A stretch of 64,000 nt of DNA, taken from assembly GCA_902625725.1 (NCBI GenBank), contig CACOCY010000002.1, forward strand, positions 1-64,000, in the 5' to 3' direction. This document shows, in pieces, positions 7,741 to 64,000 of this stretch. Position 1 is the stretch's first letter. Each line of letters begins with the position of its first letter. The notes under the pieces were generated by a model, which was not told the DNA's origin, did not search any database, and was given only the letters and a program-made list of their open reading frames with translations. Source of the stretch: an uncultured SAR116 cluster alpha proteobacterium. GTDB taxonomy: Bacteria > Pseudomonadota > Alphaproteobacteria > Puniceispirillales > Puniceispirillaceae. The translations under genes and the position numbers were made by a program.

Positions 7741-7753
7741 TTTTTTGTTTTAC

Positions 7754-8389
7754 TCAGTTTTTTGCCCGTAACTCTTCATAACTAGTAGTAACAAATTTGG
7801 TGTATCCTGGGCGTACCAGTAATTTTTCATACCAACGCGTGAGAGCAGGAGTTCCTGCTAAATCAGGAGCAACATCCCGCATTCGATACATTAAAGTTCC
7901 AAGTGCAATATCTGCAATTGTAAAATTATCCAGTAAATAATCCCTATTTTCCAGTCTCTGGCTTACAATTGCCGAAGCAGAAATTAATGATTTGTATTGT
8001 TTGTCTTCGTTTTCTTTTGATCGCTCATTTGATGGTGTGCGCACTAATTCCCAAAAAAGTCCTATAACAGACGGTTGAAAGGCACTACTATTAAAATCGA
8101 TCCAGCAGCTTATTTCCGCTTCTTTACTGATATTATTTACCCCTATCGAAGATTCAGGAAATTTTCTGGCTAAATATCTTAGTATAGAATGGCTTTCCCA
8201 AAGCGCCAGTTCACCATCTTCTAACACTGGTACTAATTTTGTGGGCGTTTTAGAAGCATATTCCTTCCTATCTTTTCCGCCATAAATTCCACCTACAATC
8301 TCATGTTCATATGGTTCTCCCACTTCTTCTAATGCCCAAAGTATTTTTTGAACATTAGAAGATGATTTACGACCCCAAAGACGCAGCAT
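7754..8389 (-). CDS. Glutathione S-transferase family protein
   Basis: A 211-residue cytosolic GST. Residues 1-80 form the thioredoxin-fold domain, with the likely activating serine in GRKSSSNVQK and the glutathione-binding stretch TKLVPVLEDGELALWESHSI; the rest is the helical C-terminal domain with the FTIADIALG signature. Its start overlaps the stop of the cyclase-family gene by one base, so the two are translationally coupled. In a catabolic operon such proteins often act as isomerases or ring-opening partners rather than detoxifying enzymes; the substrate is unknown. Confidence 0.9.
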   Translation of the reverse strand: MLRLWGRKSSSNVQKILWALEEVGEPYEHEIVGGIYGGKDRKEYASKTPTKLVPVLEDGELALWESHSILRYLARKFPESSIGVNNISKEAEISCWIDFNSSAFQPSVIGLFWELVRTPSNERSKENEDKQYKSLISASAIVSQRLENRDYLLDNFTIADIALGTLMYRMRDVAPDLAGTPALTRWYEKLLVRPGYTKFVTTSYEELRAKN

Positions 8390-9345
8390 TATTTTATAGC
8401 CTGTGGATTGATTGGTGAACCCGCAGCGCCTGGAATGTGTAATGGTGGGGCGTTAAAGAAAAATTCATATACTTTATCTTCATCACAATCTTCTGCAAGC
8501 TCTTTTAGATAGAATATTTCACCCATGGAGATTCCGATAGCTGGTATTACAACCCAGTGCCAAGGCTGATTAGCCTCATCTGTTTCATTTGGTCTAACTT
8601 CACATCCCCAGGTGTCGGCACATATAGCGGCAATATCATGATTTTTTATCCAATGTGCCGTTTCGAAAGCAAGTCCAGGTGCGTCTCCCCCTGCATAGCC
8701 AGTCCAATCTTTCTTTGCTAGACATCGTTCTTGATGACCCGTTCTTACAATTACAAAATCTCCTTTTTTTACTTCAACTTTTTGCCAAGCAGCGCAATCA
8801 TCGAGATCTTTATTTGTTATGGGATAACCATCATCAAGACTTGAAACACCCTTGAAACGAGCGATATCTAAAAGTACGCCCCTTCCAGCCATTTTATCTC
8901 TAACATGTTCAATACCTAGATTGCTTGACCCATGAATAGTCACATCAGTTGCAGGATAGCCATTATACATTTTATCATCTAAAAAAATATGACACAACGC
9001 ATCCCATTGAGTTGAGCCCTGACAAGGTAAATTTATTGCGTCATCTGCATAGCGGAGAAATGTCTTTCCATCAGAGTCTTGTACCCCTGCAACAGCATCT
9101 GTACCCGTTGCAAGCATTTGGTGTATCATATTCCATCTTCCACCAAAAAGACCAGACTGAATTTTCTCTTTTAAATTTAGACCTAAAGCAAAAACCTTAC
9201 CCTTTTTTATTAGTTTTGCAGCGTTAACAATATCCTCAGGGGTGATATTGTTTAGTGTGCCAAATTGGTCGTTTTCGCCCCAACGGCCCCAATTTGATAG
9301 TTCTTTAGCTGTATCGTAAATATGTTGTCTGGTAAATTTTGCCAT
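8389..9345 (-). CDS. Cyclase-family metal-dependent hydrolase
   Basis: A 318-residue member of the cyclase family (kynurenine formamidase-like fold), of the longer subtype. The usual HxGTHxDxxxH metal motif appears as GSTQWDALCHIF near residue 105, and later segments (HQERC, ICADTWGCEVRP) fit this subtype. Family members hydrolyse formamide, lactone or related C-N and C-O bonds in aromatic breakdown. Start chosen at the ATG with a ribosome site (AAGGAG) just upstream, visible on the minus strand. It leads a two-gene unit with the GST. A second, shorter cyclase-family gene lies at 58.0 kb beside the other molybdenum hydroxylase. Confidence 0.88.
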   Translation of the reverse strand: MAKFTRQHIYDTAKELSNWGRWGENDQFGTLNNITPEDIVNAAKLIKKGKVFALGLNLKEKIQSGLFGGRWNMIHQMLATGTDAVAGVQDSDGKTFLRYADDAINLPCQGSTQWDALCHIFLDDKMYNGYPATDVTIHGSSNLGIEHVRDKMAGRGVLLDIARFKGVSSLDDGYPITNKDLDDCAAWQKVEVKKGDFVIVRTGHQERCLAKKDWTGYAGGDAPGLAFETAHWIKNHDIAAICADTWGCEVRPNETDEANQPWHWVVIPAIGISMGEIFYLKELAEDCDEDKVYEFFFNAPPLHIPGAAGSPINPQAIK

Positions 9346-9402
9346 TTAGTTACTCCTTTTCTAAAAAATTTTAAAACTACGATTTTTTATTCACATTTCA
9401 AT

Positions 9403-9927
9403 TTAGACTGCATTTGTACCACGTGCCGGATAACTATTTTCGACCGCAAATTGTGCTTTTGGCATAAGTGTTTCTAGGTTTGGTCTTGCCCATGGCATAT
9501 TCGAAATGTCGACTAAATATAATCGACCATCTGGTCTAATCCACATTAATCCAGGTTCACAAAAAATATCGTTTTCTGACTCTTTAATAGAAGATGAGAT
9601 ATAAAGTCCCCAATTTTTAGCTGTTTGGATATCTAGCCCATAGGCTATGTCAACTTTATCAAGACCCCAATCCACTTTAGCTTGTTCCGCGCGCTGTTTT
9701 TGATCCATAGAGGCAACAACAACTGAGAAACCTAATTCTGAAATTTCATCCATCATTTTATTCAATGTACCCAGATAATTCTTACATATTGGACAATGCA
9801 ATCCACGGTAAAAAATAATCATTGTGAAATTTTTTGGTGTTTGCATAGATAAAATCCATTTTCCACCCCCTACTTTAGGGAGTGATAATTCTGGTGCTTG
9901 TGCATCTGGGATTAACGCTTGTGTCAT
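9403..9927 (-). CDS. Peroxiredoxin-like redoxin
   Basis: A 174-residue AhpC/TSA thioredoxin-fold protein. It carries a CxxC pair (GLHCPICKNYL, near residues 48-51) and the usual FYRG lead-in. The rest matches peroxiredoxin-like family 2 rather than true two-cysteine AhpC. It probably reduces peroxides or disulfides in the cytoplasm; no signal peptide is visible. It lies between osmC and the cyclase gene on the same strand with 57-64 base gaps, so it may protect against peroxide formed by the neighbouring flavin and molybdenum enzymes, which is inference. Confidence 0.85.
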   Translation of the reverse strand: MTQALIPDAQAPELSLPKVGGGKWILSMQTPKNFTMIIFYRGLHCPICKNYLGTLNKMMDEISELGFSVVVASMDQKQRAEQAKVDWGLDKVDIAYGLDIQTAKNWGLYISSSIKESENDIFCEPGLMWIRPDGRLYLVDISNMPWARPNLETLMPKAQFAVENSYPARGTNAV

Positions 9928-9991
9928 TTAGTGTGATCCTTGTTTATTCATAACTTATCAAAAATGAAATGCTAGTATATGAAGAGAATGT

Positions 9992-10456
9992 CTAAAGTGA
10001 GTTTATAATCCAATTCTCAGTTATTTTTACCCCGCTGCCACGCAGCACCTTTGCTATCGGACAAAACTTTGCCAAGTCCGTTTTTAGTGCGTTCATTTGC
10101 TCCTCTGTTGCATCTGTATCAATTTCAATGTCCATCGTTACAGAGGAAAATGGTACATCTATTTCTTCTTCTAACATTGTACCACGCCTGTCGAATTTTG
10201 CGCTAAGTTGAATATCCATTACACCTAATTCGACACCCATTTTATCAGCAATTCTTTTGCTAATAACATTGGTACAGCCAATCAGTGAAGCCATTAATGT
10301 TTCAGTTGGAGTTAATCCTTGATTCGTTCCACCTCTCGCTTCAGGCTCATCTATAATAGAGCTTACATCGCGGATATTAATTTTAGTTCTCGCATGCGTT
10401 TCACCTATTGCTGACATTGACATAGTCACTTCTGTTTTTGGCGTCATATTTGTCAT
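9992..10456 (-). CDS. OsmC/Ohr-family peroxide-resistance protein
   Basis: A 154-residue OsmC-like protein. Both redox cysteines are present: one in LIGCTNVISKRIADKMG near residue 76 and one in KFCPIAKVLRGSGV near residue 131. The family reduces organic peroxides. It is transcribed away from the molybdenum hydroxylase operon, with a 122-base gap shared as a divergent promoter region, so the two units may be co-regulated. A slightly later methionine (M4) is an alternative start. Confidence 0.88.
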   Translation of the reverse strand: MTNMTPKTEVTMSMSAIGETHARTKINIRDVSSIIDEPEARGGTNQGLTPTETLMASLIGCTNVISKRIADKMGVELGVMDIQLSAKFDRRGTMLEEEIDVPFSSVTMDIEIDTDATEEQMNALKTDLAKFCPIAKVLRGSGVKITENWIINSL

Positions 10457-10578
10457 AGTTAATCCTTTTTAAGGGTTGTTTATTTAAAAGAAATAGATAA
10501 TCGTTAATAATTGTTATGGTCATCCGCGTAGAATGCAAGATCAAAAAAAAGTATATTAGTTAAAATAGGATCAAGAAA

Positions 10579-11424
10579 ATGAAAGCTCCTGATTTCAGTT
10601 ATGAAAAGCCAACCACCATTTCAGATGTGTTAGCTTTGCTAGCAAATAACGAATTAGAGTGTCAGTTGCTGGCAGGTGGCCAGAGCCTCATGCCTATGAT
10701 GAATTTTAGGATGGCAAGTCCCGGCACACTGGTTGATATCTCAAATGTTTCAGAACTCTCTGGCATAAATGAGCGTGACGAGACTATCGAGATCGGGGCT
10801 ATGGTACGATACCGCGAATTGGAGTTGAGTGAAATTATAAAAGCTCATTGCCCACTTGTTGCAATGGTGCTGCCATATGTTGCTCACGCGGCTATCAGAA
10901 ATCGTGGAACAATTGGCGGCTCTATAGGTCTTTCAGACCCTGCAGCAGAACTTCCAGCAGTACTTTTAGTATTAGATGGCAAGATTGAAATAACTTCGGA
11001 AAAGGGAATTAGGTTAGAACCAGCGCGGACTTTTTTTAAGGGAATTTACGAAACTTCATGCGAACCTGATGAACTAATTACTAAAATAATTCTGCCTAAA
11101 AAGCACCTAAAGCAAAAATTTGGTTTTCATGAAATCGCCAGGAGGCATGGTGATTACGCCATGGCGGGTGTTTGTATTGCACAAGATATTGATTTAAAAG
11201 TAAGGGTCGCTTTTTTTGGAGTCGCTGATAGAGCTGTCAGGTCAATTGCCGTTGAAAAGTTACTTTCTGGCAATTCTGATCTCTCAGAACAATTAATCAA
11301 AGATGCCCAAAATGCATTGAATGACATAGAATTTGAAGGTGACATGAATGCAGGTCCTGAGGCAAAACAACATATTGCTAAGGTTGTTTTGGAGCGTGCA
11401 TTAAAGGAGATGAAAAATGAATAA
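10579..11424 (+). CDS. Molybdenum hydroxylase, FAD-binding subunit
   Basis: A 281-residue medium subunit of the xanthine dehydrogenase/CO dehydrogenase family (CoxM/CutM type). The two FAD loops are intact: AGGQSLMPMM near residue 33 and TIGGSIGLSDPAAE near residue 113. It passes electrons from the iron-sulfur subunit to FAD and the final acceptor. It is the first gene of a tight operon and overlaps the next gene by eight bases. Together the three genes make a complete (LMS)2-type hydroxylase. Confidence 0.95.
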   Translation: MKAPDFSYEKPTTISDVLALLANNELECQLLAGGQSLMPMMNFRMASPGTLVDISNVSELSGINERDETIEIGAMVRYRELELSEIIKAHCPLVAMVLPYVAHAAIRNRGTIGGSIGLSDPAAELPAVLLVLDGKIEITSEKGIRLEPARTFFKGIYETSCEPDELITKIILPKKHLKQKFGFHEIARRHGDYAMAGVCIAQDIDLKVRVAFFGVADRAVRSIAVEKLLSGNSDLSEQLIKDAQNALNDIEFEGDMNAGPEAKQHIAKVVLERALKEMKNE

Positions 11425-11896
11425 AACAGCGCAGATTGAGTTGATTGTAAATGGAGAAAAATATTTTGAAAATGTGCCTGTTCGCATGAATTTAGCGGAT
11501 TTTCTTAGAAATAAATTAGGGCTTACCGGGACACATGTTGGCTGTGAGCATGGTGTTTGTGGCGCCTGCACGATATTTCTTGATGGTGTTACCGCACGAA
11601 GTTGTCTTACACTTGCGGTACAAGCCGATGAAACGGAAATAACAACTATTGAGGGGTATGAAACGGACAAAAATGCTTCTGACTTAATTAAAAATTTTCA
11701 CAAACGAAATGCATTACAATGCGGATATTGTACGCCCGGAATGCTTGCTTCTTCAATTGAATACATTGAGCAAGGAAATCCTCCTGACCGTAAAAAAGTC
11801 AAAGAGCATATATCTGGAAACTACTGCAGATGCACAGGTTACCAAGCTATTGTAGATGCTATCTGCACAACAATACAAGAGAGGCAAAGCAGATGA
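11417..11896 (+). CDS. Molybdenum hydroxylase, [2Fe-2S] subunit
   Basis: A 159-residue small subunit (CoxS/CutS type) carrying two [2Fe-2S] clusters. The plant-ferredoxin-type cluster motif is GCEHGVCGACTIFLDG near residue 43. The second, proximal to the molybdenum centre, is CGYCTPGM near residue 102 plus CRCTGY near residue 137. All eight cysteines are visible. It sits between the FAD and molybdopterin subunit genes and overlaps both. Confidence 0.95.
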   Translation: MNKTAQIELIVNGEKYFENVPVRMNLADFLRNKLGLTGTHVGCEHGVCGACTIFLDGVTARSCLTLAVQADETEITTIEGYETDKNASDLIKNFHKRNALQCGYCTPGMLASSIEYIEQGNPPDRKKVKEHISGNYCRCTGYQAIVDAICTTIQERQSR

Positions 11897-14271
11897 CTGG
11901 TCCTGCAACAGTTTTTGACAAACCCACTGATTATATTGGAAAATCAATTCCCCGTTCAGATGCTGCTAGACTGTTAAGAGGGAAGGGCAGGTATGTTGAT
12001 GATATGCAATTGCCTCGAATGGTGCACGCTGTCTTCTTGCGGTCTCCATACGCACATGCAAAAATAAATGCGATCGACATATCCCAAGCCATGAAATTAC
12101 CAGGCGTTGTGGCCATTTACACTGGTAAAGACATTGCTCAGCATGTTGAACCCTATGTGGGCGTTTTAAGTCATTTACCTGGATTAAGATCGCCAGCTCA
12201 ATATCCTTTAGCTGTTGACGTTGCTCGCTGGCAGGGTGAGCCTGTTGCTGTTGTTATCTGCGCATCAAGAGCATTAGGTGAAGATGCGCTCGAACATATA
12301 AGAGTTGACTACGAAAAACTGACTGCGGTTACGGACACATTGAATGCGCTTTCGCCAGATGCGCCCCTCATTCATGAGGAATACGACAGTAATCTTGCTT
12401 GGAAACGACAAGTTGAGGTTGGTAATCTTGAAGAAGCGCTCGCTCAAGATGATGTGGTTGTCGTTGAAAAGCAAATAAAATTTGGTCGCCATACGGGTGT
12501 TACTTTGGAAACGAGGGCAACAGTATGTGATTATATTCCGGGGGATGGACAGCTTATCATGTATTATGCAGGACAGGCGCCGCATATGCTTCAATTTATA
12601 TTAGCAAAACATCTTGATATGCTAGAAGAAAATGTGCGTGTGGTAGCCCATGATGTTGGAGGGTCTTTCGGAATAAAAGTACATACTTATGGCGATGAAA
12701 TAGCAACAGCTATTGTTGCTAAATTATTAAAAAGACCTGTGAAATTTACCGCAGATAGATTAGAAAGTTTTGTTACAGATATACATGCCCGGGACCATTT
12801 TGTTGATGCAAAAATTGGGGTAAAAAAAGATGGGACTATTGTTGGAATGGGATTTAACGACTTTACAGGTATAGGACCTTTTTCAATGTATCCGCGAACT
12901 TCTGCTATTGAATGTAATCAAATACTTAATTTAACAGGGGCTCCTTACCAATTTGAGCATTATCACGCTGTAGGACATGTTGTGTTCCAGAATAAAACCT
13001 TGATGTGTCAGTATCGCGCTGTTGGTCACCCAATTGCTATGGCGATTTCTGATTGTATGATCGAAGAAGCAGCGCGCGTAATAGGAATGGACCCTGTAAA
13101 GATCCGCAGGAAAAATTTAATCCCAGACGATGCTTATCCTACAAAATCAACAACTGGGATGCGCTTTGATGATTTATCCCATCACGCATGTTTAGATAAA
13201 CTTTTAGAAATTATGGATTATGATGCGTTGCTTGAAGACCAACAAAACGCCAGAGGTAACGGAATATATCGAGGCATTGGATTTGTTTCTTTAGTTGAGG
13301 TGACTAACCCATCACCAATGTTTTATGGTGTTGGCGGTGCTCCCATAGCTTCTCAGGATGGTGCTACTGTTAGACTAGATGCAGCGGGGGCACTTCATAT
13401 TTCCTCATCGGTTACTGAACAAGGACAGGGTACAAACGCAATTTTGCAACAAATTGCAGCTGACGTTTTTGGTGTTTCTATAGAAAGGGTTAAAGTTACA
13501 ACCGGCGATACGGCAACCGTGCCTTATGGCGGAGGGACTTGGGCCTCAAGAGGTGCAGGCATTGGAGGTGAAGCCATGCTTTTAGCCTCCCATGCATTGA
13601 AAGAGCAGGTATTAGACACAGCCGCTGTCATTCTTCAGGCAAAGCCGGAAGACCTAGACATCGCTTTTGGAGAAATAGTAAACAAAGGCAGTAGAGAACG
13701 AAAAATTTCGTTGGGTGATCTAGCAAAAATTGTCTATTATAGAGGAAATGAATTGCCCCATGATCTTAAACCAGAATTAATTGCTACTCGTCATTATCGT
13801 GTAACTGATTTCCCTTTCGTTTTCACAAATGGCGCAATGGCTGCGCATGTGGAGGTCGATACAAATACTGGTCTTATCAAAATTTTACATTTTTGGGCAG
13901 TAGAGGATTGTGGTAGAGTGATTAATCCACAGCTTGTTGATGACCAAATTCGAGGCGGCGTTGTTCAGGGTATCGGGGGCGCACTGTATGAAGAGTGTGT
14001 TTATGATTCAGATGGTCAAATGCAAAATGCTAGTATGGCGGATTATCTAGTCCCAATGGCTAGTGAAATGCCAGAAATTACGGTAGCACATGTTGAAACT
14101 TATACTAAAACATCTGTCTTAGGAGCAAAAGGGGCTGGAGAAGCGGGTACAGGCGGTGCACCAGCTGCAATAATGAATGCTGTAAACAATGCATTAGAGC
14201 CTTTAAATTGTGGGTTATGGCAAATGCCTATGACACCCGAGAGAGTTTTAAAAGCCCTAGGTAAGATTTAA
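11893..14271 (+). CDS. Molybdenum hydroxylase, molybdopterin large subunit
   Basis: The 792-residue catalytic subunit of the xanthine dehydrogenase/CoxL family. The start is the ATG overlapping the small-subunit stop (ATGA); an in-frame ATG 63 bases upstream lies inside the small-subunit gene and is unlikely. The N-terminal hammerhead domain (SDAARLLRGKGRYVDD) and the active-site glutamate in GAKGAGEAG near residue 746 are present. The CO dehydrogenase form I signature AYxCSFR is absent; the position reads CQYRAVGHP, so this is not a true CO dehydrogenase and the substrate is more likely an N-heterocycle or aldehyde. It needs the molybdopterin cytosine dinucleotide or a similar cofactor, whose genes are not here. 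Confidence 0.93.
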   Translation: MTGPATVFDKPTDYIGKSIPRSDAARLLRGKGRYVDDMQLPRMVHAVFLRSPYAHAKINAIDISQAMKLPGVVAIYTGKDIAQHVEPYVGVLSHLPGLRSPAQYPLAVDVARWQGEPVAVVICASRALGEDALEHIRVDYEKLTAVTDTLNALSPDAPLIHEEYDSNLAWKRQVEVGNLEEALAQDDVVVVEKQIKFGRHTGVTLETRATVCDYIPGDGQLIMYYAGQAPHMLQFILAKHLDMLEENVRVVAHDVGGSFGIKVHTYGDEIATAIVAKLLKRPVKFTADRLESFVTDIHARDHFVDAKIGVKKDGTIVGMGFNDFTGIGPFSMYPRTSAIECNQILNLTGAPYQFEHYHAVGHVVFQNKTLMCQYRAVGHPIAMAISDCMIEEAARVIGMDPVKIRRKNLIPDDAYPTKSTTGMRFDDLSHHACLDKLLEIMDYDALLEDQQNARGNGIYRGIGFVSLVEVTNPSPMFYGVGGAPIASQDGATVRLDAAGALHISSSVTEQGQGTNAILQQIAADVFGVSIERVKVTTGDTATVPYGGGTWASRGAGIGGEAMLLASHALKEQVLDTAAVILQAKPEDLDIAFGEIVNKGSRERKISLGDLAKIVYYRGNELPHDLKPELIATRHYRVTDFPFVFTNGAMAAHVEVDTNTGLIKILHFWAVEDCGRVINPQLVDDQIRGGVVQGIGGALYEECVYDSDGQMQNASMADYLVPMASEMPEITVAHVETYTKTSVLGAKGAGEAGTGGAPAAIMNAVNNALEPLNCGLWQMPMTPERVLKALGKI

Positions 14272-53236: not shown

Positions 53237-53842
53237 TTAGTTAAGCTCTATTATTTGATTCGCACTCAAATAGGAACTCACGTCCTGATGAGATATTATA
53301 AGTGTGATTGACTTCATTTTTTGCCTTTGCTCTTCAATTAACATGGATGCTTTTTTTATCATATTCAGATCTAGAGCAGAAAAAGGTTCATCCAATAATA
53401 AGATTGGTTGCTCTCGCAATAAGGTTCTTATTAAAGCAATACGTTGGAGTTCACCGCCGGATAAGTCATGAGATTTCCGATTGATTAGAGAATTTACATC
53501 TAAAAAATTAATTTTATTTTTCATATTTTCAATATGTTCTAATTTATTTCTTATTCCTAACATTAAATTTTCTTTCACAGATAAATGAGGAAATAAATTA
53601 TCACTTTGAAACATTGTAGAAACAGGCCTTTTCCAGGGAGGCTTTACACATAAATTTTCACCATTAAATAAAATTGAACCGGACACTGGTTCATAAAATC
53701 CAGAGATAATATTGAATAATGTTGTTTTACCCACACCAGAGCGTCCGCTTATTAAAATTATTTCACCCTTAGAAGCATTTAAATTTACCTCCTGTGAAAA
53801 TGAATCTGGCCATTGATATATTAATTTATTTAATTGAAGCAT
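53237..53842 (-). CDS. thiQ: Thiamine ABC transporter ATPase
   Basis: A 201-residue ABC ATPase. Walker A is SGRSGVGKTTLF, the signature LSGGELQRIAL, and Walker B ILLLDEPFSALD. It powers thiamine, thiamine phosphate and thiamine diphosphate import with ThiP and ThiB. Start taken at the ATG giving MLQLNKLIYQWPDS, which fits the family; the frame is open 13 codons upstream inside thiP. It overlaps thiP by 17 bases. Assignment rests on the operon and the riboswitch as much as on the sequence. Confidence 0.92.
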   Translation of the reverse strand: MLQLNKLIYQWPDSFSQEVNLNASKGEIILISGRSGVGKTTLFNIISGFYEPVSGSILFNGENLCVKPPWKRPVSTMFQSDNLFPHLSVKENLMLGIRNKLEHIENMKNKINFLDVNSLINRKSHDLSGGELQRIALIRTLLREQPILLLDEPFSALDLNMIKKASMLIEEQRQKMKSITLIISHQDVSSYLSANQIIELN

Positions 53843-55538
53843 CTTTAAATACCGTGTGGCTATAAATCCGCAGTTTTTCAATATACATTAAGATAACACC
53901 AAAAATTAAGTAAGCCCCAAAAATATATCCGAGAATGAATATGCCTAGCATATCCGCTTCAGAAGCACCATAACGGCTGAAAAGTTGATAAAGATAATAA
54001 GGTAATGTTTCAAACTCGTGATTACCAAATAAAGTGATTACACTTAAATCACCTAGTGAAAAGGCAAAACTTAAACCCAATACCAGCTGTAATTCACGAT
54101 TTATTGTAGGCATGGTTAATGAAAAGAATTTCCGTGCCCCAGTTATACCTAATTGTAAGGATAACTTATCATGCTGCGAAAGTTTATGTTCTAATGACGG
54201 CGATAATATACGTACAACAAAAGGTAAAGAAAATAATATATTTGCTAATAAAACTAGCCAGAACGCAAATTCAAAAAGATTAATTGTATTTCGCAGTAGG
54301 AGAAAACATCCGGTAGCAAAAACAATAGCTGGCATTAAAAGATAAAATGATACAGAAAAATCAATAAATTGTATCCAAAGGTGAGTGCCGGACTGTGCTA
54401 GTCTAAACCTACTATGGATTAAAATAATGGAGATACTAACGCTTAATATTGAAGAAAAAAAAGCGAGTTTGGTAGACAAATTAAAAGCTCTCCAAAACCT
54501 TTCTTGTTCGAATAACTTAAGTCCGGAATATAAATCTAACCTAAAAAATAATGCTATTAACGGTAATACAATAAGTAGAAAAAAAATAGTGAGGCAAAAT
54601 AAATCTGTGAGCCTTGATACGATAGTATTTGTATCATTTCTTTCGATTTTATTTTTCTCCGCATTTGCTGAAGGGGAGCTAATATTAAAATTTAGTGGCC
54701 TAGATATAAAAATTAGACCAGAGCATATCAAAATTTGTAATATACTTAAACAAGCTGCCAACTGCATATCAAAAGAAAAACGAACTGCGTGATAAATGGA
54801 AACTTCTAACGTTGTTACATCAGGTCCGCCTCCTAGCATAAGAACTATTGAAAAGGAGGTAAAGCAAAGCAAAAAAATCAAACTTGCTAGAGGAAATATA
54901 ATTTTCTTAAATGTTGGCCATTCTATGAATTTAAATATCTCTATTTCCGACAAATTATTATGGGATGCTATTTTCCAATAGTAGCTTGGCTGGGTTATTA
55001 AAGCAGAATAAGCAACTCTTAAAACAAGGGGTGCATTAAAAAATACATGCGCAAGAACAACCATCCATAACCCAAAAAGAGATACACTACTTAATCCTAA
55101 AGAACTTAAGAGACCAGACCTTCCCCAAACCGCCACAATACCTAAAGATGCAACAGTTGTGGGAATTACTAGTGCCACAAAGCTTGTAGACAAAACGATT
55201 CTATTCAGCCAGTAATTTCCCCTTCTATGAAGGGCGCGTGCACATACTATTCCAGCAAATAAAGAAAAAAAAGTAGAGAGGAATGCCTGCCATCCAGCAC
55301 TTTTAATTATATTAAAAGTAGTAGATGAAAAAATAGTATCTAAATTACTGCCATCACCTGCTATCCTAAACATTTGGGTTAATATCAAACATCCAAGAGT
55401 TGATAGAAATAACCCAAAAAACACACCATAAGCTCTTGCAAATTGAAAATGCCTTAATAGAGAAAGTGACTGGGCGGCATAAAATGTTTTTGCTCTCTTT
55501 TTTCCTATTTCTTCTATTTTGTACTTGCGGCTAACCAC
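53826..55538 (-). CDS. thiP: Thiamine ABC transporter permease
   Basis: A 570-residue inner-membrane protein with about twelve helices in two homologous halves, each with the permease EAA-like loop (ASHNNLSEIEIFKFIEWP and LQLGITGARKFFSLTMP). This duplicated form is the ThiP/FbpB type. The start is GTG, lying 25 bases inside the end of thiB, which suggests translational coupling. ThiB delivers the ligand and ThiQ supplies ATP hydrolysis. Confidence 0.93.
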   Translation of the reverse strand: MVSRKYKIEEIGKKRAKTFYAAQSLSLLRHFQFARAYGVFFGLFLSTLGCLILTQMFRIAGDGSNLDTIFSSTTFNIIKSAGWQAFLSTFFSLFAGIVCARALHRRGNYWLNRIVLSTSFVALVIPTTVASLGIVAVWGRSGLLSSLGLSSVSLFGLWMVVLAHVFFNAPLVLRVAYSALITQPSYYWKIASHNNLSEIEIFKFIEWPTFKKIIFPLASLIFLLCFTSFSIVLMLGGGPDVTTLEVSIYHAVRFSFDMQLAACLSILQILICSGLIFISRPLNFNISSPSANAEKNKIERNDTNTIVSRLTDLFCLTIFFLLIVLPLIALFFRLDLYSGLKLFEQERFWRAFNLSTKLAFFSSILSVSISIILIHSRFRLAQSGTHLWIQFIDFSVSFYLLMPAIVFATGCFLLLRNTINLFEFAFWLVLLANILFSLPFVVRILSPSLEHKLSQHDKLSLQLGITGARKFFSLTMPTINRELQLVLGLSFAFSLGDLSVITLFGNHEFETLPYYLYQLFSRYGASEADMLGIFILGYIFGAYLIFGVILMYIEKLRIYSHTVFKDASIK

Positions 55539-56533
55539 TCATCAATCCATTTTTTCTGGTTTGAAGCTACATCTTTGGATTTGAAAATAAGCGATTTGGT
55601 CGGTTTGGCCAGTGTTTCAAAACCTCCTGGTATTTCGCCAGTAAAGGCCGGATACATCCAGTTCGTTGTAGGTATGGTATTCTGAAATGCGGGGGAAGCA
55701 ATGAATTCCATGAATTTAGCTGCAAGTTCTGGTTCGGAGGAGCTTTTTAACATGGCTCCTACCTCAATTTGTAAATAGTTACCCTCTGCAAAAACAGCGG
55801 CGTCAAAATTATCATTTCCTTCCGCAATTAAGTGATACGCAGGTGAAGTAGTGTAAGATAATACCATGTCCGCTTCCCCGTCCAAGAAAAGAGCATAGGC
55901 CTCTGACCATCCTTTCGTGACGGTTAGGATCTTAGGTTGTAACTCTCTCCAATAGTTTAAAGCCTTATCACCATAAACAGATTTAACCCAAAGCAATAAT
56001 CCCAAACCAGGTGTTGATGTTCTTGGGTCTTGGATGACAATTTTAATATCATCAGACATTTTTGATAATTCTTGAAATGATTTTGGTGGACTTTTTAAAG
56101 AATTTTTATTGTAAACAAAACCAAACCAGCCCCAATCAAACGGCATAAATATATCGTCGTTGTATACAATAGGCAATGAGCTGCGCTCATTATTGATATC
56201 TTTGACTTTAGTTGGTAGTGGTGCAAAAAGCCCTGTCTCTTTTGCAATATGAACAAGATTGGTATCGAGACCAAGTGCAATATCTGCTTTTGTATTTTTT
56301 CCTTCAAGCTGAATTCTGCCCAAAATTCCGATAGAGCTATCTAGTCCAATAAATTGCAAGTCGCATTCACATATCTCCTCAAATTTTAACTCAACAGTTG
56401 GACCTGGACCCCAATCAGATGTAAATGAATCATATGTGTAGACCGTAAGAACTGGTTTGTCCGCTACGGCTGGATGTATACCTAATAAATAAGTGATAAA
56501 AACAATGGCGATTCTTAAAATATTCATATTCAT
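55514..56533 (-). CDS. thiB: Periplasmic thiamine-binding protein
   Basis: A 339-residue binding protein. A signal peptide covers about residues 1-24 and ends at HPAVADKP. The mature start LTVYTYDSFTSDWGPGPTVELKFE matches the ThiB family well, as does DIALGLDTNLV and TSPAYHLIAEGN. It captures thiamine and its phosphates. It is the first gene after the TPP riboswitch. The second methionine (M3) is an alternative start. Confidence 0.95.
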   Translation of the reverse strand: MNMNILRIAIVFITYLLGIHPAVADKPVLTVYTYDSFTSDWGPGPTVELKFEEICECDLQFIGLDSSIGILGRIQLEGKNTKADIALGLDTNLVHIAKETGLFAPLPTKVKDINNERSSLPIVYNDDIFMPFDWGWFGFVYNKNSLKSPPKSFQELSKMSDDIKIVIQDPRTSTPGLGLLLWVKSVYGDKALNYWRELQPKILTVTKGWSEAYALFLDGEADMVLSYTTSPAYHLIAEGNDNFDAAVFAEGNYLQIEVGAMLKSSSEPELAAKFMEFIASPAFQNTIPTTNWMYPAFTGEIPGGFETLAKPTKSLIFKSKDVASNQKKWIDEWLAASTK

Positions 56534-56790: not shown

Positions 56791-57966
56791 CTATCTTTTT
56801 TCCAAATAAATTTTCTCTGTTAATGAAATTAATTGTTCATCTTTGTTTAAACTGCCTAAAATTGAAATTCCAAAAGGTTGAGGAGTATCTATCTTAAGTG
56901 GCAGTGATATTTGTGGCCTACCGGTTAGCCCCGCAATACAAGTGAAATTATGAATTTTTTTTCGAAATATTGATAATTCTTCATTTATTTTGCTTTTATT
57001 CAAAGCTGGCATGGGTGTTGTTGGGAAAATAGCAACACAATCATCTTCTATTAGTGCATCAATGCGGCTCTTGAAATTCTTTCTATTTTTATTTGCGTTT
57101 TCAAATTCAGCTTTAGTTATGCTATCTGCAAAATCAATTCTCTCTTTAATATTTTTTCTTAGTTTTAAGCGATGTTTTTTTACATGTTTTACTAAGCCGA
57201 GTTTTGCCTCCCATCCTTGTATTATTTGGAAATCCATAATTGAACTTTCAAAGTCAATTGCAGAAAAGGTTTTAGCTTCTATATTAAAATGGGCTTCCAA
57301 TATTTTTATCCACTGTTTTGAATCAGCAGAAACTTGTTGCGTGCTGTATTTAAATAAATCCTCTATTATAATGATTTTATTTATTTTATTTTTTTGTGTA
57401 CTATAATTCTTTAATAGTATTTGTCCTACCTTTGATAGTAGTTCTGGTTTTTTTGTTAACCATCCAAGTGTATCTAGTGAAGGCGCTAGTGCTGTCATAC
57501 CATTTGTTGGGATTCTCCCATGTGTTGGTCGAATTCCAAACAAACTACAAAAGGAAGCCGGTACTCTAATCGATCCACCCGTGTCACTTCCAAGGGCAAA
57601 ATCAGCTAAGTCAAAACCCACAGAAGCGGCAGCTCCCGATGATGACCCGCCGGGAACTAACTTTGTATTTATCCAGTTCTCAGGTTGTTGAAATGAGCTT
57701 TCTATGCCAGTCAGACTATAAAAAAATTCATCGCAGTTAGTTAGTCCAACCAGTTTTGCTCCCTCACGCATAAGCGAGGTTATTATAGGACTAGTAGAAC
57801 TAGACGGTTCAAACTTATTTAAGCTTCCCTTGTGGCCATTACTCTTAATATGTCCTTTCAAATCAAATAAGTCTTTTGCTGAAAAGGTGTAGTTATCTAA
57901 AATTCCCAACGTCTTTGGAAATTCGTTAAAATTTGACTTGCATTCAACAAAAATGTTACTCGGCAT
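56791..57966 (-). CDS. Amidase-signature family hydrolase
   Basis: A 391-residue amidase. The Ser-cisSer-Lys triad is complete: lysine in FSAKDLFDLKG near residue 32, cis-serine in PGGSSSGAAASVG near residue 110, and the nucleophile in GSDTGGSIRVPASF near residue 135. It is shorter than typical amidases (about 450-500 residues), with a compact C-terminal part. The family cleaves carboxamides, ureas or indole-acetamide-like compounds. It is the last gene of a cupin-cupin-cyclase-amidase unit transcribed away from the second molybdenum hydroxylase, so an amide intermediate of that pathway is the natural guess. Confidence 0.9.
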   Translation of the reverse strand: MPSNIFVECKSNFNEFPKTLGILDNYTFSAKDLFDLKGHIKSNGHKGSLNKFEPSSSTSPIITSLMREGAKLVGLTNCDEFFYSLTGIESSFQQPENWINTKLVPGGSSSGAAASVGFDLADFALGSDTGGSIRVPASFCSLFGIRPTHGRIPTNGMTALAPSLDTLGWLTKKPELLSKVGQILLKNYSTQKNKINKIIIIEDLFKYSTQQVSADSKQWIKILEAHFNIEAKTFSAIDFESSIMDFQIIQGWEAKLGLVKHVKKHRLKLRKNIKERIDFADSITKAEFENANKNRKNFKSRIDALIEDDCVAIFPTTPMPALNKSKINEELSIFRKKIHNFTCIAGLTGRPQISLPLKIDTPQPFGISILGSLNKDEQLISLTEKIYLEKR

Positions 57967-58001: not shown

Positions 58002-58841
58002 TTAATTTCTTGCGTTCGCAAAATCCCCAATGAAATCCAAGGGTCCATCGTAGTCCTCAAATAATAAAATCCTGCATGGACAAGCTTCTAGTCCTTCATA
58101 TCTCCAAGGAAAGGCACCAATTAACCCCCTTTTATTTGAGGCTAATTCAATGTCGCCGCCTATATTTTCTGCGTGAGTTAAACCCCTATCAAATGCATAA
58201 GTATGAAAAGGAAAAATATCGTCAGTTATTTCTCTCCCTGATTTAGCGTGTTTATAAGAAAAATCTCCAAAAAATTTTTCGCAGGACATACCAATTTGCT
58301 TTTCAAATTTTTTTGCTAAATCAGGTCGCATGTTTCTAATGGAGGTATTCATGGAATGATCACCAGAACCACAATCGATACCAAACCATTTAATTTTCTT
58401 ATCAAGCATCCATTCTAATAATTCAATCTTACCTCCTGGATGCATACAAAAATATCTGACTAAATCTTGATTTTCTTGCCCTTCCCAATATTTATGAAAA
58501 CCAGTGTTTAAAATAAGAATGTCACCTTCTTTAACTTCAACTGGTGAGTCTTCTATCATTTGTGGAGTGATAACAGACCAGTCGTCACAATATTTTGATA
58601 TGTCCACTACTGCTCCGGGTCCCATCAAAAAATCTAAAGAGTAAGAAGCCATGTCTCCCATACCATCAGTACCGTGCATTGCCCCATCTATATGTGTTCC
58701 AGAATGTAGGGCAATATCAATCCGTTGAGTTACAATTGTTTTTGTTTGAAGGTTGGCAGCATAAAACATTTTATTACCGGCGTAACCAACCCAACCTGGG
58801 GTATGTATATTCATTTTATGTGTCAAATCATATATTTTCAT
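58002..58841 (-). CDS. Cyclase-family metal-dependent hydrolase
   Basis: A 279-residue member of the cyclase/kynurenine formamidase-like family. The metal motif is canonical, HSGTHIDGAMHGTDGMGD near residue 47, followed by GPGAVVDIS and GDILILNTGFHKYW. Such enzymes hydrolyse formamides, lactams or cyclic imides, often through a Zn or Mn centre. It differs from the longer cyclase at 8.4-9.3 kb, which has a degenerate form of this motif, so they are different subtypes. It lies 13 bases after a cupin gene and 35 bases before the amidase gene. Confidence 0.92.
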   Translation of the reverse strand: MKIYDLTHKMNIHTPGWVGYAGNKMFYAANLQTKTIVTQRIDIALHSGTHIDGAMHGTDGMGDMASYSLDFLMGPGAVVDISKYCDDWSVITPQMIEDSPVEVKEGDILILNTGFHKYWEGQENQDLVRYFCMHPGGKIELLEWMLDKKIKWFGIDCGSGDHSMNTSIRNMRPDLAKKFEKQIGMSCEKFFGDFSYKHAKSGREITDDIFPFHTYAFDRGLTHAENIGGDIELASNKRGLIGAFPWRYEGLEACPCRILLFEDYDGPLDFIGDFANARN

Positions 58842-58854
58842 TTACTTCTCCTAA

Positions 58855-59247
58855 TTAAAATTCATACTTTTTAGGCAACTTACCAACATTCTTTAAAAGA
58901 TGTTTGTCTGCCGGTGATGGTCCTCCAACACTTACGATTTTTTTTCCACCATCTGCTCGTACCGCATGTTTAATTCCAATAGGAACGTGTATAAGGTCGT
59001 TTTTATCGAATTGATGTACTTCGCCTGTGTCATAATTTTTAATGCTTCCTCTCCCCTCTATTATAAAAATAGTATCTTCAGAATCTTTGTGTATATGGGG
59101 GATGTTTTCCTCGCCCGGTTCTAAAACGACATAATTCATATTTGCATGCTCGGAGTCCTCTCCAAGCCAAACAATAAAACGAGCGTCACTAGAGATTATA
59201 GGTAATCTAAGACTTGGATTATTTATATCAAAAATTTTGATTGTCAT
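58855..59247 (-). CDS. Cupin-domain protein
   Basis: A 130-residue single-domain cupin. The metal motif reads PHIHKDSEDTIFIIEGRG near residue 50, with the second motif DKNDLIHVPIGIKHAV. It may be an isomerase, a dioxygenase-like enzyme or a sensor. It lies two bases after the next cupin-like gene and immediately before the cyclase gene, so it belongs to the same unit. Confidence 0.88.
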   Translation of the reverse strand: MTIKIFDINNPSLRLPIISSDARFIVWLGEDSEHANMNYVVLEPGEENIPHIHKDSEDTIFIIEGRGSIKNYDTGEVHQFDKNDLIHVPIGIKHAVRADGGKKIVSVGGPSPADKHLLKNVGKLPKKYEF

Positions 59248-59249
59248 AA

Positions 59250-59618
59250 TTATTCACCTATATTCATTATATTTTTATCAAAAGGACAGGGACCTCCGAG
59301 TAAGGTTAGTTCATCTCCAAAGGTAATAAAACAAAACATGGTATTGGGAGTTATAAATACCATTTTATCTTCTGAAATGTTTTCTTTTTGATTTTCTGTT
59401 TCATCAAAAATAACGCCTTTGCCCTTCATAACAAAAAAGACACATTCAGAACTTAAATTTACCGAGTTTGTTTGTTGATTTTTTGATAAATGAATTTTTA
59501 ACGATGTTCTCCATTTAGCACCATCATCTGGAGTAAGGATAGGTGTAAGCGATATTTCTTTATTTTTAAAAACTATAGGTTCAATATTTGTAGAATTTAT
59601 AATTTGTATACTTTCCAT
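59250..59618 (-). CDS. Cupin-like small protein
   Basis: A 122-residue protein with cupin-like beta-strand spacing (SSECVFFVMKGKGVIFDE, then EDKMVFITPNTMFCFITFGDE), but the histidines that bind metal are missing. Start at the ATG near 59618; it heads the minus-strand unit. No specific function can be assigned. It could be a non-catalytic partner of the adjacent cupin, because the two genes are only two bases apart. Confidence 0.7.
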   Translation of the reverse strand: MESIQIINSTNIEPIVFKNKEISLTPILTPDDGAKWRTSLKIHLSKNQQTNSVNLSSECVFFVMKGKGVIFDETENQKENISEDKMVFITPNTMFCFITFGDELTLLGGPCPFDKNIMNIGE

Positions 59619-59702
59619 ACAGTTTTACCAATCTATTATTTAAAAATACTTATCAGACAAGCAATCTGTGCATAAACTATAACAGCATATTTACGCTATT
59701 TT

Positions 59703-59715
59703 GTATATTGTATAC
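59703..59715. promoter_or_regulatory. Palindromic candidate operator
   Basis: GTATA-TTG-TATAC is a perfect inverted repeat in the 159-base gap between the divergent cupin and molybdenum hydroxylase units. GntR-family repressors commonly bind GTATAC-type palindromes, so a shared repressor is plausible. No regulator gene lies in the visible part of the island. Confidence 0.35.
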
Positions 59716-59777
59716 TGAAACATATTACATTAATATGATCAAACAAATTAAATGAGTGTTATGAACTGGAAAAAGTT

Positions 59778-60629
59778 TTGAAAGCAAGTAATTTTCTTTA
59801 TTTGAAACCTAAAAGTTTAGACGAAGCTTTATCTTTTCTATCATCAAATGAGGAACCAAGGATAATGGCTGGAGGGCAAAGTCTTGTCGCAGCAATGAAT
59901 ATGAAGTTGGCACAGCCAGAAACCATTATTGATATCGGAGAAATTGAAGAACTTAAAATTTTAGAATCTAACTCTAATGAAGTTCAGATTGGAGCTTTAA
60001 TTACGCATGGTGATATTGAGTTTTGCAAAAATTCGTCGAAGTTGCTTCTTTTTTTAAGCACTGTTTCAAAGAATATAGCCCATACACCTATAAGATTTAA
60101 AGGTACTTTTTGTGGGGCCGTTGCTAATTCTGATCCAGCTTCAGAATGGTGTTCTTGTTTACTAGCTCTTGATGGAGTCGTTGAGGTAATCGGGCAAGAT
60201 AGAAAAAAAAGAATTGTTGATAGCAAGGAATTTTTTATTGCTCCCTATTTAACAAATGTTGGTTATGACGAAATATTATTATCTATAAAATTTCCTGAAA
60301 TTAATGAAAATACAAAGTTAGGCTTTAATGAGTATGCGAGACGAGCTGGAGATTATGCAATTGCAATGTGTGTATCAAAATTAAATATGGTTGATGAGAA
60401 AGTTAAAGATGGAAATATAGTCATAGGTGCAGCTGCCGAAACACCAGTAATTATTGAAGAAGCAATAAATTTTTTACAAGGTAAGGCAATTAACCAAAAA
60501 ACATCTTGGGAAGCAGCTATTATCGCATCCGAAAATATCAAAATCTTACCTGACATTGATTCTTCCGAAGAATACAAACGAGATATTGTTAAAGCCGTAA
60601 CTTACCGTTCCTTGCTAGCGTGCTCATAA
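59778..60629 (+). CDS. Molybdenum hydroxylase, FAD-binding subunit (second locus)
   Basis: A 283-residue FAD subunit homologous to the one at 10.6 kb. The first FAD loop AGGQSLVAAMN is normal. The second, usually TIGGS/N, reads TFCGAVANSDPA near residue 114, so the first glycine of the pair is cysteine. Start is TTG: it aligns with the methionine of the paralogue (MKASNF versus MKAPDF) and has GGAAAA upstream. It is the first gene of an operon, with one base before the large-subunit gene. Confidence 0.93.
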   Translation: MKASNFLYLKPKSLDEALSFLSSNEEPRIMAGGQSLVAAMNMKLAQPETIIDIGEIEELKILESNSNEVQIGALITHGDIEFCKNSSKLLLFLSTVSKNIAHTPIRFKGTFCGAVANSDPASEWCSCLLALDGVVEVIGQDRKKRIVDSKEFFIAPYLTNVGYDEILLSIKFPEINENTKLGFNEYARRAGDYAIAMCVSKLNMVDEKVKDGNIVIGAAAETPVIIEEAINFLQGKAINQKTSWEAAIIASENIKILPDIDSSEEYKRDIVKAVTYRSLLACS

Positions 60630-60630
60630 A

Positions 60631-62943
60631 ATGGTTGCCATCGGAATATCGCAAAAACGAAAAGAAGACCCTTCTTTATTAACCGGAAGGGCAAAGTTTG
60701 TTGCGGATATGTGCAGTGATTCAACAGAAGTACAATTCATAAGAAGCCCTATAGCAAAAGGAAAAATAAAAAAAATAAACAGGAATCAGCATACAGAGTT
60801 GATTACTGGTCAAGCATTAGAAGAGATAAATGATATATCTTGCAAGTTAGATAAGTTTAATTTTATTCCCATTGCTCAGCCAATTCTTCCATCTGAAGAC
60901 ATAAAATATGTAGGTCAAGCCATCGGCGCTATTTACAACCACGATCCAAGGAGAGAATTGAAACAGGATTTTTCGTTCTTTGAATTTGAAGTTGAAAAAG
61001 GTGTTTACGAAATCAATGATGCGTTAAAAGCTAACGCCCCCATAGTTCACGAGCATATAAAAGATAATATTGTTGTTCACGGAAAATTTGAGACTGATGA
61101 CTTTGAAAGCAAATTTGGCGAGGGTGATTGTAAAATTGAAATCCAATTCAATTCAAAAAGACAAAATGCTTCGCCTCTTGAAACAAGAGGTTGTGCTGTA
61201 AAATTTAATGTGTCCACGGAAAGAATAGAATTATATGTCTCTGCTCAGATGCCACATATGTTGAGAACAGGAATTTGTGATTGTTTAAATATAGCTGAGA
61301 GCAAATTAAGAGTTATCGCTCTAAATGTTGGTGGAGCGTTTGGTCAGAAGATGGCATTATTTCCAGAATATGTTTTTCTCTGTTGGCTCGCATTGCGCAA
61401 AAAAAGAAATTTTCATTGGATTGAAGACCGTCAAGAAAATTTTTCTTCATCGGCACATAGCAGAGACCAAATTCATGAAGTTAATGCGTCCTTTGATAGA
61501 AAAGGAAAATTGCTCGCTTTAAAAACACATATCAAAGCTAACGTAGGCGCTTATTCAAATTATCCAGTAACAGCCGGCGTAGAACCGTTGATGGCACTCG
61601 CGGAATATACTGGGCCTTATGACGTCTCAGCCTATTCATCTGAAGCAATTGGCGTGCTCACAAACACGTGTATGATGGCGCCTTACAGAGGGGTTTCAAG
61701 ACCAGTTATAACAGCTGTTCTGGAAAGGCTTATGGATAAAGCATCTAAAATATTAGGTATTGATAAAATTGAAATACGAAATAGAAATTTGATAAAAAAA
61801 TTTCCCTATAAAACACCCACGAATTTAATTATTGACGAGGGTTCTTATTCGGAAACGCTTTCATTTGCAAAAGATATTATCCTTCGGGAAAACAAATATT
61901 TAGAGTTTGATAATAAAAAAAACAATTATGAATTAACTGGTATTGGTCTCTCCGTTTTTGGTGAAAGAACTGGATACGGAACAAGCGCTTTTGCAGCTAG
62001 AGGAATGCAAATAACACCAGGTTTTGAGAATTGTGATCTAAGCATGGACCCCTCTGGTAATATTACTGCTAGAGTTGGTATTTGTTCAAACGGACAGGGA
62101 ATAGCTACCACATTATCTCAGATAATAGCCGACAATTTGGGACTTACCGTTGAAAATATAAATATTGTGCAGGGTGATACAGACAATACACCCTATGGAT
62201 GGGGAACATTTGCAAGTAGATCTGTAGTTATATCGGGTGGCGCTTGTCAAATATCAGCTCAAAAACTTGCTAAAAAGATTAAAGAGATAGCTTCTTTCTA
62301 CTTACAATGTGACATAGATGAGTTGGAGTTGGAGGGTGGATATGCCATAAACAAGAAAACAAATTCGAATCTCTCTTTAAAAACAATTGGGCGAAAAGTT
62401 TATCATTCTAATCATGAAGTTAAGGATATAGCTGGAAGCGAACTTCGTGTTTCTAGCGCTTACGATCCTGTTGGCACATTTTCGAATGCATGCCACATTG
62501 CAAAAATTAGAATAGATACTCTCACAGGTAATGTATTAGTCGAAAAATATTTTGTAATAGAAGATGCTGGAAAATTAATTAATCCAAAAATAGTTGATGG
62601 GCAGATAGTTGGTGGAGTAATTCAAGGCATAGGCAATGCTTTATTTGAAGAAATAAAATATGATAAAAATGGAACTATATTAACAACTAATTTTGCAGAT
62701 TTCAAAATTCCTACCATGCATGAAACACCAAAAATAGAGATCAAACATTTAGAAACAATAACAGAATATTCTGAGACTGGAGCTAAAGGGTTAGGTGAGG
62801 GAGGACTTATTGGTGCTCCGGGCGCCATATTGAGTGCAATAAATAATGCGCTGGAGCAGTATGGAGAAGAGATTAATTTTTTTCCTGTACATCCAAATGA
62901 CATTAGAGAGGTGTTGAGGAAACATGAGCAAAGAAAATATTGA
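60631..62943 (+). CDS. Molybdenum hydroxylase, molybdopterin large subunit (second locus, first copy)
   Basis: A 770-residue catalytic subunit of the xanthine dehydrogenase/CoxL family. It starts ISQKRKEDPSLLTGRAKFVAD and keeps the active-site glutamate in GAKGLGEGG near residue 718. The form-II-like position reads APYRGVSRP; the CO dehydrogenase AYxCSFR motif is absent. It has GGAFGQKM near residue 235, a cofactor-contact segment. It overlaps the small-subunit gene by 20 bases. Unlike the first locus, gene order is FAD, large, small, and a second large subunit follows. Confidence 0.93.
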   Translation: MVAIGISQKRKEDPSLLTGRAKFVADMCSDSTEVQFIRSPIAKGKIKKINRNQHTELITGQALEEINDISCKLDKFNFIPIAQPILPSEDIKYVGQAIGAIYNHDPRRELKQDFSFFEFEVEKGVYEINDALKANAPIVHEHIKDNIVVHGKFETDDFESKFGEGDCKIEIQFNSKRQNASPLETRGCAVKFNVSTERIELYVSAQMPHMLRTGICDCLNIAESKLRVIALNVGGAFGQKMALFPEYVFLCWLALRKKRNFHWIEDRQENFSSSAHSRDQIHEVNASFDRKGKLLALKTHIKANVGAYSNYPVTAGVEPLMALAEYTGPYDVSAYSSEAIGVLTNTCMMAPYRGVSRPVITAVLERLMDKASKILGIDKIEIRNRNLIKKFPYKTPTNLIIDEGSYSETLSFAKDIILRENKYLEFDNKKNNYELTGIGLSVFGERTGYGTSAFAARGMQITPGFENCDLSMDPSGNITARVGICSNGQGIATTLSQIIADNLGLTVENINIVQGDTDNTPYGWGTFASRSVVISGGACQISAQKLAKKIKEIASFYLQCDIDELELEGGYAINKKTNSNLSLKTIGRKVYHSNHEVKDIAGSELRVSSAYDPVGTFSNACHIAKIRIDTLTGNVLVEKYFVIEDAGKLINPKIVDGQIVGGVIQGIGNALFEEIKYDKNGTILTTNFADFKIPTMHETPKIEIKHLETITEYSETGAKGLGEGGLIGAPGAILSAINNALEQYGEEINFFPVHPNDIREVLRKHEQRKY

Positions 62944-63418
62944 GCAAAATATAGAATTTTTTGTTAATGAGCAGAAATTCAACATTTCTGTGAGACCAAG
63001 TACTCATCTTGCTGATGCAATTAGAGACAAATGTTCGCTTACCGGAACTCATCTTGGATGTGAACATGGAGTTTGTGGGGCCTGTACCATATTGGTTGAT
63101 AATTTGCCGGTGAGGGGTTGTCTTTACTTAGCTGTTCAGGCAGATGGTAAAAAGATAGAGACTGTAGAGGGTCTATCTTATAATGACGAACTTAATGATA
63201 TTCAGAATTCTTTTTGGGAAAATCATGGTCTTCAATGTGGGTTTTGTACTCCAGGGTTTTTAATCTTAACTAAATGGATGCTTGAAAATTTTAAAGAACT
63301 ATCTGAGGATATAGTCAAAGATGTTCTGTCCTCGAATATATGCAGATGTACCGGATATCAAAATATAATTAAATCAGTAAAACAAGTGGCAATAGAGCAA
63401 AATAAATGGGTGGAATAG
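62924..63418 (+). CDS. Molybdenum hydroxylase, [2Fe-2S] subunit (second locus)
   Basis: A 164-residue small subunit. Cluster motifs are GCEHGVCGACTILVDN near residue 46, CGFCTPGF near residue 105, and CRCTGYQN near residue 139; all cysteines are present. Its start lies 20 bases inside the first large-subunit gene and its end overlaps the second one by 13 bases. A single small subunit might therefore serve two large subunits. Confidence 0.95.
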   Translation: MSKENIEQNIEFFVNEQKFNISVRPSTHLADAIRDKCSLTGTHLGCEHGVCGACTILVDNLPVRGCLYLAVQADGKKIETVEGLSYNDELNDIQNSFWENHGLQCGFCTPGFLILTKWMLENFKELSEDIVKDVLSSNICRCTGYQNIIKSVKQVAIEQNKWVE

Positions 63419-64000
63419 GTACATCGACCAAGCGTTTAGAGGATCCACCATTATTACTTGGCAAGGGCATATTTGTAGCTGATATAAATCACGATAATCA
63501 AATTTACATGCGGGTAGTTCGCTCAGATGTTTCTCATGGTAAAATAAATTTTATAAACACAGAATTGGCAAAGAATCTAGAAGGGGTTTTGGATGTGTGG
63601 AGCGCCGCCGATTTTGAGGAAATACCCAAAATAAAATTTAGAATGATGGGGCGTAACGATTTAGAAAACTATCTACAACCTATCCTTGCAGATGGCACAG
63701 TTAGGTATGTTGGTGAACCAATTGCTGTTATTTTTGCAACAGAAAACCATATAGCTGATCATGCAGCTGAGCTGCTAGAAATTAATATTGAGATAATGCA
63801 ACCGCAAATTTCAGCTACTGAAAATCCCTTAATATTCTCTAAGCATCTCAATAATGAGGCCTGTTTGGTTACAAAAAAATATGGGGATGTGGATAAAGTT
63901 ATAAAAACTAGCGACAATTTCTTAGAATTAGAATTTTATGTTGGAAGACATAGCGGAGTACCGCTAGAAACAAGAGGACTATCAACATTTTTTGACGAGG
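63406..64000 (+). CDS. Molybdenum hydroxylase, second large subunit (partial)
   Basis: An open frame from the ATG at 63406 to the window end, about 198 codons. It begins MGGIGTSTKRLEDPPLLLGK and continues with FVADINHDNQIYMRVVRSDV, the standard hammerhead start of xanthine dehydrogenase-family large subunits; DGTVRYVGEPIAVIFA and HSGVPLETRG are also typical. It is a different sequence from the 60631 gene, not a tandem copy. The molybdenum site lies beyond the window, so intactness cannot be judged. The overlap with the small-subunit gene supports co-translation. Confidence 0.88.
   Translation, partial: MGGIGTSTKRLEDPPLLLGKGIFVADINHDNQIYMRVVRSDVSHGKINFINTELAKNLEGVLDVWSAADFEEIPKIKFRMMGRNDLENYLQPILADGTVRYVGEPIAVIFATENHIADHAAELLEINIEIMQPQISATENPLIFSKHLNNEACLVTKKYGDVDKVIKTSDNFLELEFYVGRHSGVPLETRGLSTFFDE

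Follow-up and report, generated by a model that had tools for sequence, protein, structure and literature searches.

Molybdenum hydroxylases are usually described as enzymes in which one catalytic subunit works with FAD and iron–sulfur partners of its own. The pAO1 nicotine genes provide the closest characterized comparison, since two successive molybdenum hydroxylations of one pyridine ring are carried out by Ndh and Kdh. Both are complete enzymes, and the FAD-binding medium subunit (M) and 2×[2Fe–2S] small subunit (S) are separate for each: Ndh is an NdhLMS enzyme with M and S subunits of its own (PMC6214936), and kdhA and kdhB are seen for Kdh. In the same system, a cyclase has been proposed to open 2,3,6-trihydroxypyridine and an amidase yields 2-oxoglutarate (PMC6214936). 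Quinoline 2-oxidoreductase (QorLMS, 1t3q) follows the same subunit plan with one large, molybdopterin-binding catalytic subunit (L) only. Nicotinate dehydrogenase of Eubacterium barkeri (NdhFSLM) is encoded by four genes, two of them for molybdopterin-binding subunits, but these are halves of 37 and 50 kDa. By description, the nearest precedent for the locus analyzed here is the Bacillus niacini nicotinate cluster, in which a pair of putative molybdenum oxidoreductases is reported to occur with at least one Fe–S protein (PMC4256190); it likewise involves two molybdenum hydroxylations of one pyridine ring, a likeness drawn from the published description only. No report of a two-large-subunit molybdenum hydroxylase of the M–L1–S–L2 type was found in the open-licence literature.

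The locus lies at the end of the window, the whole 64,000-nucleotide stretch of DNA analyzed, which comprises positions 1–64000 of contig C2 of a 2.0-Mb SAR116 genome. Four forward-strand genes follow one another there. The first (59778..60629) starts with TTG and encodes M, a xanthine-oxidase-family FAD-binding subunit of 283 aa with Pfam FAD_binding_5 and CO_deh_flav_C domains and an AGGQS FAD motif. The first catalytic subunit, L1 (60631..62943, 770 aa), matches Ald_Xan_dh_C, MoCoBD_1 and MoCoBD_2, the N-terminal Ald_Xan_dh_C match falling below the Pfam cut-off. S (62924..63418, 164 aa) carries Fer2 and Fer2_2 domains and eight cluster cysteines (C46, C51, C54 and C66, and C105, C108, C140 and C142), and the second catalytic subunit, the Kdh-like L2, begins at 63406 and occupies 63406..64000 of the window, with the domains Ald_Xan_dh_C, MoCoBD_1 and MoCoBD_2. 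L1 and S overlap by 20 bases and S and L2 by 13. Pfam matches of all four proteins thus place M, S and MoCoBD large subunits in one operon, which is the subunit plan of the xanthine-oxidase family. The original prediction had read this order and these overlaps from the open reading frames, which are indeed found at these positions, and had noted that the second large gene ran off the window. Extension of the contig confirmed this and gave a complete L2 (C2:63406-65679, intact, 757 aa), which removes the concern that the gene was truncated. The other concern, a second FAD and small-subunit pair directly downstream, proved unfounded as well: 3′ of L2 lies livF, of a branched-chain-type ABC transporter, on the opposite strand and convergent, and in contig C2 read past the window no second M or S gene occurs near downstream of L2.

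The two large subunits differ, as the original prediction had it. L1 and L2 share only ~30–33% identity. L1 is closer to NdhL (32%) than to KdhL (29%), whereas L2 is closer to KdhL (34%) than to NdhL (29%). A tree built as had been proposed, from 90 large subunits, unites the L1 sequences in a single clade (support 100) on the pAO1 NdhL side and groups L2 with KdhL (support 92), although deeper placement in this tree is tentative owing to long branches. The best solved structure for L1, by sequence and by fold, is quinoline 2-oxidoreductase (1t3q_B), ~31% identical; the predicted L1 model (pLDDT 76) matches this QorL chain over its full length. For L2, the best solved structure is 6-hydroxypseudooxynicotine dehydrogenase. 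By identity and phylogeny, L1 and L2 are therefore assigned to different subfamilies, L1 on the nicotine-dehydrogenase/quinoline 2-oxidoreductase side. Three other identities were rejected. A recent tandem duplication is ruled out by the ~30% identity and the separate clades. A split large subunit of the NdhFSLM type is excluded because both L1 and L2 are full length (757–770 aa), each with all three large-subunit domains. Aerobic CO dehydrogenase (CoxMSL) is alike in family, subunit plan and fold, but the AYxCSFR loop of form I is missing from both, being replaced by APYRGVSR in L1 and GTYRSPGR in L2.

Both subunits retain the residues of an active molybdenum site. The equivalent of the catalytic Glu E1261 of xanthine oxidase is E723 in L1 and E717 in L2 and is invariant in nearly all orthologues. 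All 33 L1 sequences keep E723, Q206, GQG, an Arg near the substrate and a Gln, and L2 keeps the catalytic Glu, the substrate-side Arg, GQG and the second molybdopterin Gln with few exceptions. As members of the family, L1 and L2 would be predicted to hydroxylate with water-derived oxygen. The position of the Gln that faces the apical oxo ligand in xanthine oxidase is Gln in 33/33 L1 but Lys in 36/36 L2. In KdhL, Trp551 contacts the substrate, as judged by structure and modelling (PMC8305194). The corresponding position is Phe in all L1 and in all L2 paired with an L1, whereas it is mostly His in unpaired L2, and it is the sole alignment column common to L1 and paired L2 that is absent from unpaired L2 and from the L1-like outgroup. 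Paired and unpaired L2 are separated by three columns (Kdh 380, 551 and 555), all in or beside active-site loops. This pattern fits a common substrate scaffold; the correlation was found by search and was not a prediction set beforehand. Other KdhL substrate residues differ in L2: Glu748 is kept and Trp551 is replaced by Phe, but Glu345, the binder of the amine tail in Kdh, is replaced by Gly or Ala, leaving the Kdh set incomplete.

The arrangement recurs widely. In its own genus, L1 and L2 are found in 3 of 10 genomes, and the same three carry the flanking block, which has an ABC transporter, amidase, cyclase and two cupins to one side of the operon and a liv transporter with a Rieske oxygenase to the other. 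Orthologues of L1 (45–52% identity) occur in Bradyrhizobium, Xanthobacter, Bauldia, Methylobrevis, an Aestuariivirga MAG and Betaproteobacteria, and almost all of them lie within an M–L1–S–L2 operon; this order was seen in ~29 inspected loci from SAR116, the Bradyrhizobium family, Bauldia, Xanthobacter and Betaproteobacteria. Because two congeners repeat it with every gene in place and many further genera carry it as well, the arrangement is neither chance nor an assembly artefact. Among 385 sampled Alphaproteobacteria, five have the L1 type and all five have L2 adjoining it, while 12 have the L2 type (at least 43% identity) without L1, mostly in plain M–S–L2 operons. Within the Bradyrhizobium family, 55 of 249 genomes carry L1 and 54 of these also carry L2, the lone exception being a genome that is 68% complete; L2 lies no more than 1 kb from L1 at 44 of 56 L1 loci. 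The co-occurrence there gives a Fisher p of ~1e-35, a value inflated by genome kinship. An L1 with an M–S pair of its own was found in no inspected locus.

A few loci depart from this order. One (L137) reads M–S–L1–L2, and two (L035 and L139) have L1–L2 with neither M nor S nearby; the L1 and L2 genes are immediate neighbours or overlap in L035, L137 and L140. At L035 (9929-14553) the L1/L2 overlap is 4 bases, no M or S lies between or near them, and the partners would come from elsewhere in the genome. Within the Bradyrhizobium family, one genus has L1, L2 and the best-matching S at three separate but syntenic loci (L125–L135, L151–L159 and L176–L182), and no M was found beside any of the three genes. 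The S of this genus has genes for a UbiD decarboxylase and for a Rieske oxygenase as neighbours, and in that cluster it may serve something else.

The relatedness of M and S points to how the four-gene operon arose. M and S of four-gene operons share mean identities of 52% and 64%, respectively, with those of plain M–S–L2 operons, compared with 36% and 49% for those beside the L1-like outgroup. Since they are closest to the partners found in plain M–S–L2 operons, the simplest history is that L1 probably arrived without partners of its own and was inserted into an existing M–S–L2 operon. The conserved operon structure, the lack of any M–S pair belonging to L1 and the L2 ancestry of M and S together give good comparative sequence support to the reliance of two distinct catalytic subunits on a single M–S pair, in line with the original prediction of a single electron-transfer pair common to both. 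This is where the locus parts from pAO1, in which each enzyme has its own M and S.

The neighbouring genes offer hints about the substrate. A 159-bp intergenic region (59619..59777), presumed to contain the promoters, separates the operon from a divergent operon on the reverse strand. The latter begins with cupB (59250..59618), which encodes a cupin-like protein without a Pfam match; small genes homologous to it are conserved beside the loci of Bradyrhizobium, Bauldia and Methylobrevis, among others. It continues with cupA (58855..59247; Cupin_2, with neighbours in other genera 53–61% identical), a cyclase-family (PF04199) hydrolase (58002..58841; Pfam Cyclase), which is a candidate ring-opening or amide hydrolase and has a 62–77% identical partner in many L1/L2 loci, and an amidase-signature hydrolase (56791..57966; Pfam Amidase) kept in the three SAR116 copies. 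Presumed transport genes follow, for an ABC transporter substrate-binding protein (55514..56533), also kept in the three SAR116 copies, and a permease (53826..55538), kept in the congener G009. Across loci, the conserved neighbours comprise importers, the PF04199 hydrolase, cupins, a CoxG/SRPBCC protein, a CN-hydrolase and hydrolases of the isochorismatase or amidase type. The surroundings of kdhL on pAO1 are similar in kind, with a cupin, an SRPBCC protein, a PF04199 cyclase and a CN-hydrolase. Together, the neighbours support a route of N-heteroaromatic ring opening, but not nicotine itself, because they resemble the pAO1 genes only modestly (25% identity, E 3e-4, for the cyclase and 28–30% for the CN-hydrolase); the identity of the large subunits to their pAO1 counterparts is likewise only 32–34%. 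A kynurenine formamidase-like role for the cyclase was considered and not assigned, the PDB matches being weak. The Rieske gene is nearest to methylxanthine N-demethylases, which suggests N-methylated heterocycles as another possible substrate class. Beyond the window, the Rieske gene is followed (L009 16521-19774 on C2) by genes for a triple RidA-domain protein, a BMP-type binding protein and an isochorismatase-family hydrolase; proteins of the last two types are also encoded beside the operon in Bradyrhizobium. Published work on homarine, on SAR116 and on purine use was searched, and none of it matched the operon.

We consider the chance somewhat better than even that the one M–S pair serves both L1 and L2 and that these hydroxylate one N-heteroaromatic ring in succession. 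Each large subunit would most likely assemble separately with M and S, giving L1–S–M and L2–S–M enzymes in which electrons would pass from the substrate at Mo through the two 2Fe–2S clusters to FAD. L1 would hydroxylate one of the carbons adjoining the ring nitrogen and L2 would then hydroxylate a second position on the L1 product, after which the cyclase-family hydrolase, cupins and amidases nearby would open the ring and release ammonia. We infer that both large subunits use the M–S pair in the cell, that the steps run in this order and that the substrate is pyridine-like or an N-methylated heterocycle. Of the options raised by the original prediction, successive hydroxylation is favoured because L1 resembles Ndh, the nicotine hydroxylase that acts first, and L2 resembles Kdh, the one that acts second, and because L1 and L2 have a pocket residue in common.

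The other option raised was a hetero-oligomer, in which L1 and L2 would be joined in one complex, for example (L1–S–M)(L2–S–M), through the L–L contact known from dimers of heterotrimers and would hand the intermediate from site to site. The asymmetric unit of the Kdh crystal is a dimer of heterotrimers (PMC8305194), the genes for L1, S and L2 overlap, L1 and L2 abut or overlap at L035, L137 and L140, and L1 is essentially never found without L2; a shared pathway, however, explains co-inheritance equally well, and the genus in which L1 and L2 are unlinked indicates that the two need not be made in fixed proportion from a single transcript. We regard such a complex as unlikely, and a tandem hydroxylase with L1 and L2 on a common S–M core, channelling the mono-hydroxylated intermediate between two Mo sites, has a similarly low probability. 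Less probable again is that L1 and L2 are parallel enzymes for different, related substrates: their separate subfamilies and the Gln-to-Lys difference facing the apical oxo ligand would suit this, but parallel use does not demand that the distribution of L1 depend on L2, and the pocket residue unique to the pair also argues against it. A role for L1 as a non-catalytic or chaperone-like partner of L2 is very improbable, for although L1 lacks a separate M–S pair at every inspected locus, a degenerate partner should have lost some of the catalytic Glu, Arg, Gln and molybdopterin motifs kept in all 33 sequences, and the full-length predicted fold of L1 matches QorL.

Six further xanthine-oxidase-family large subunits are encoded, alongside L1 and L2, in this 2-Mb SAR116 genome (G000; contigs C1, C2, C3, C6 and C19). 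A second, separate pyridine-type cluster lies at 6550-14271 of the window and includes a flavoprotein resembling 2,6-dihydroxypyridine-3-monooxygenase (6550-7740; 30% identical to pAO1 DhpH, E 1e-40), a PKC-like cyclase (8389-9345; 31%, E 1e-32) and an ordinary M–S–L hydroxylase (10579-14271), with 34% identity between its L and NdhL.

What is new in the four-gene operon is thus a variation on a known kind of enzyme, a xanthine-oxidase-family hydroxylase in which two full-length large subunits appear to share one M–S pair. A single M–S pair for two catalytic subunits would show that a second reaction can be gained by recruiting just a new L gene. With four genes and cultivable Bradyrhizobium hosts, the operon is a ready test system for subunit sharing or channelling, and it marks what may be a widespread, apparently uncharacterized route of N-heterocycle degradation in the ocean and in soil.
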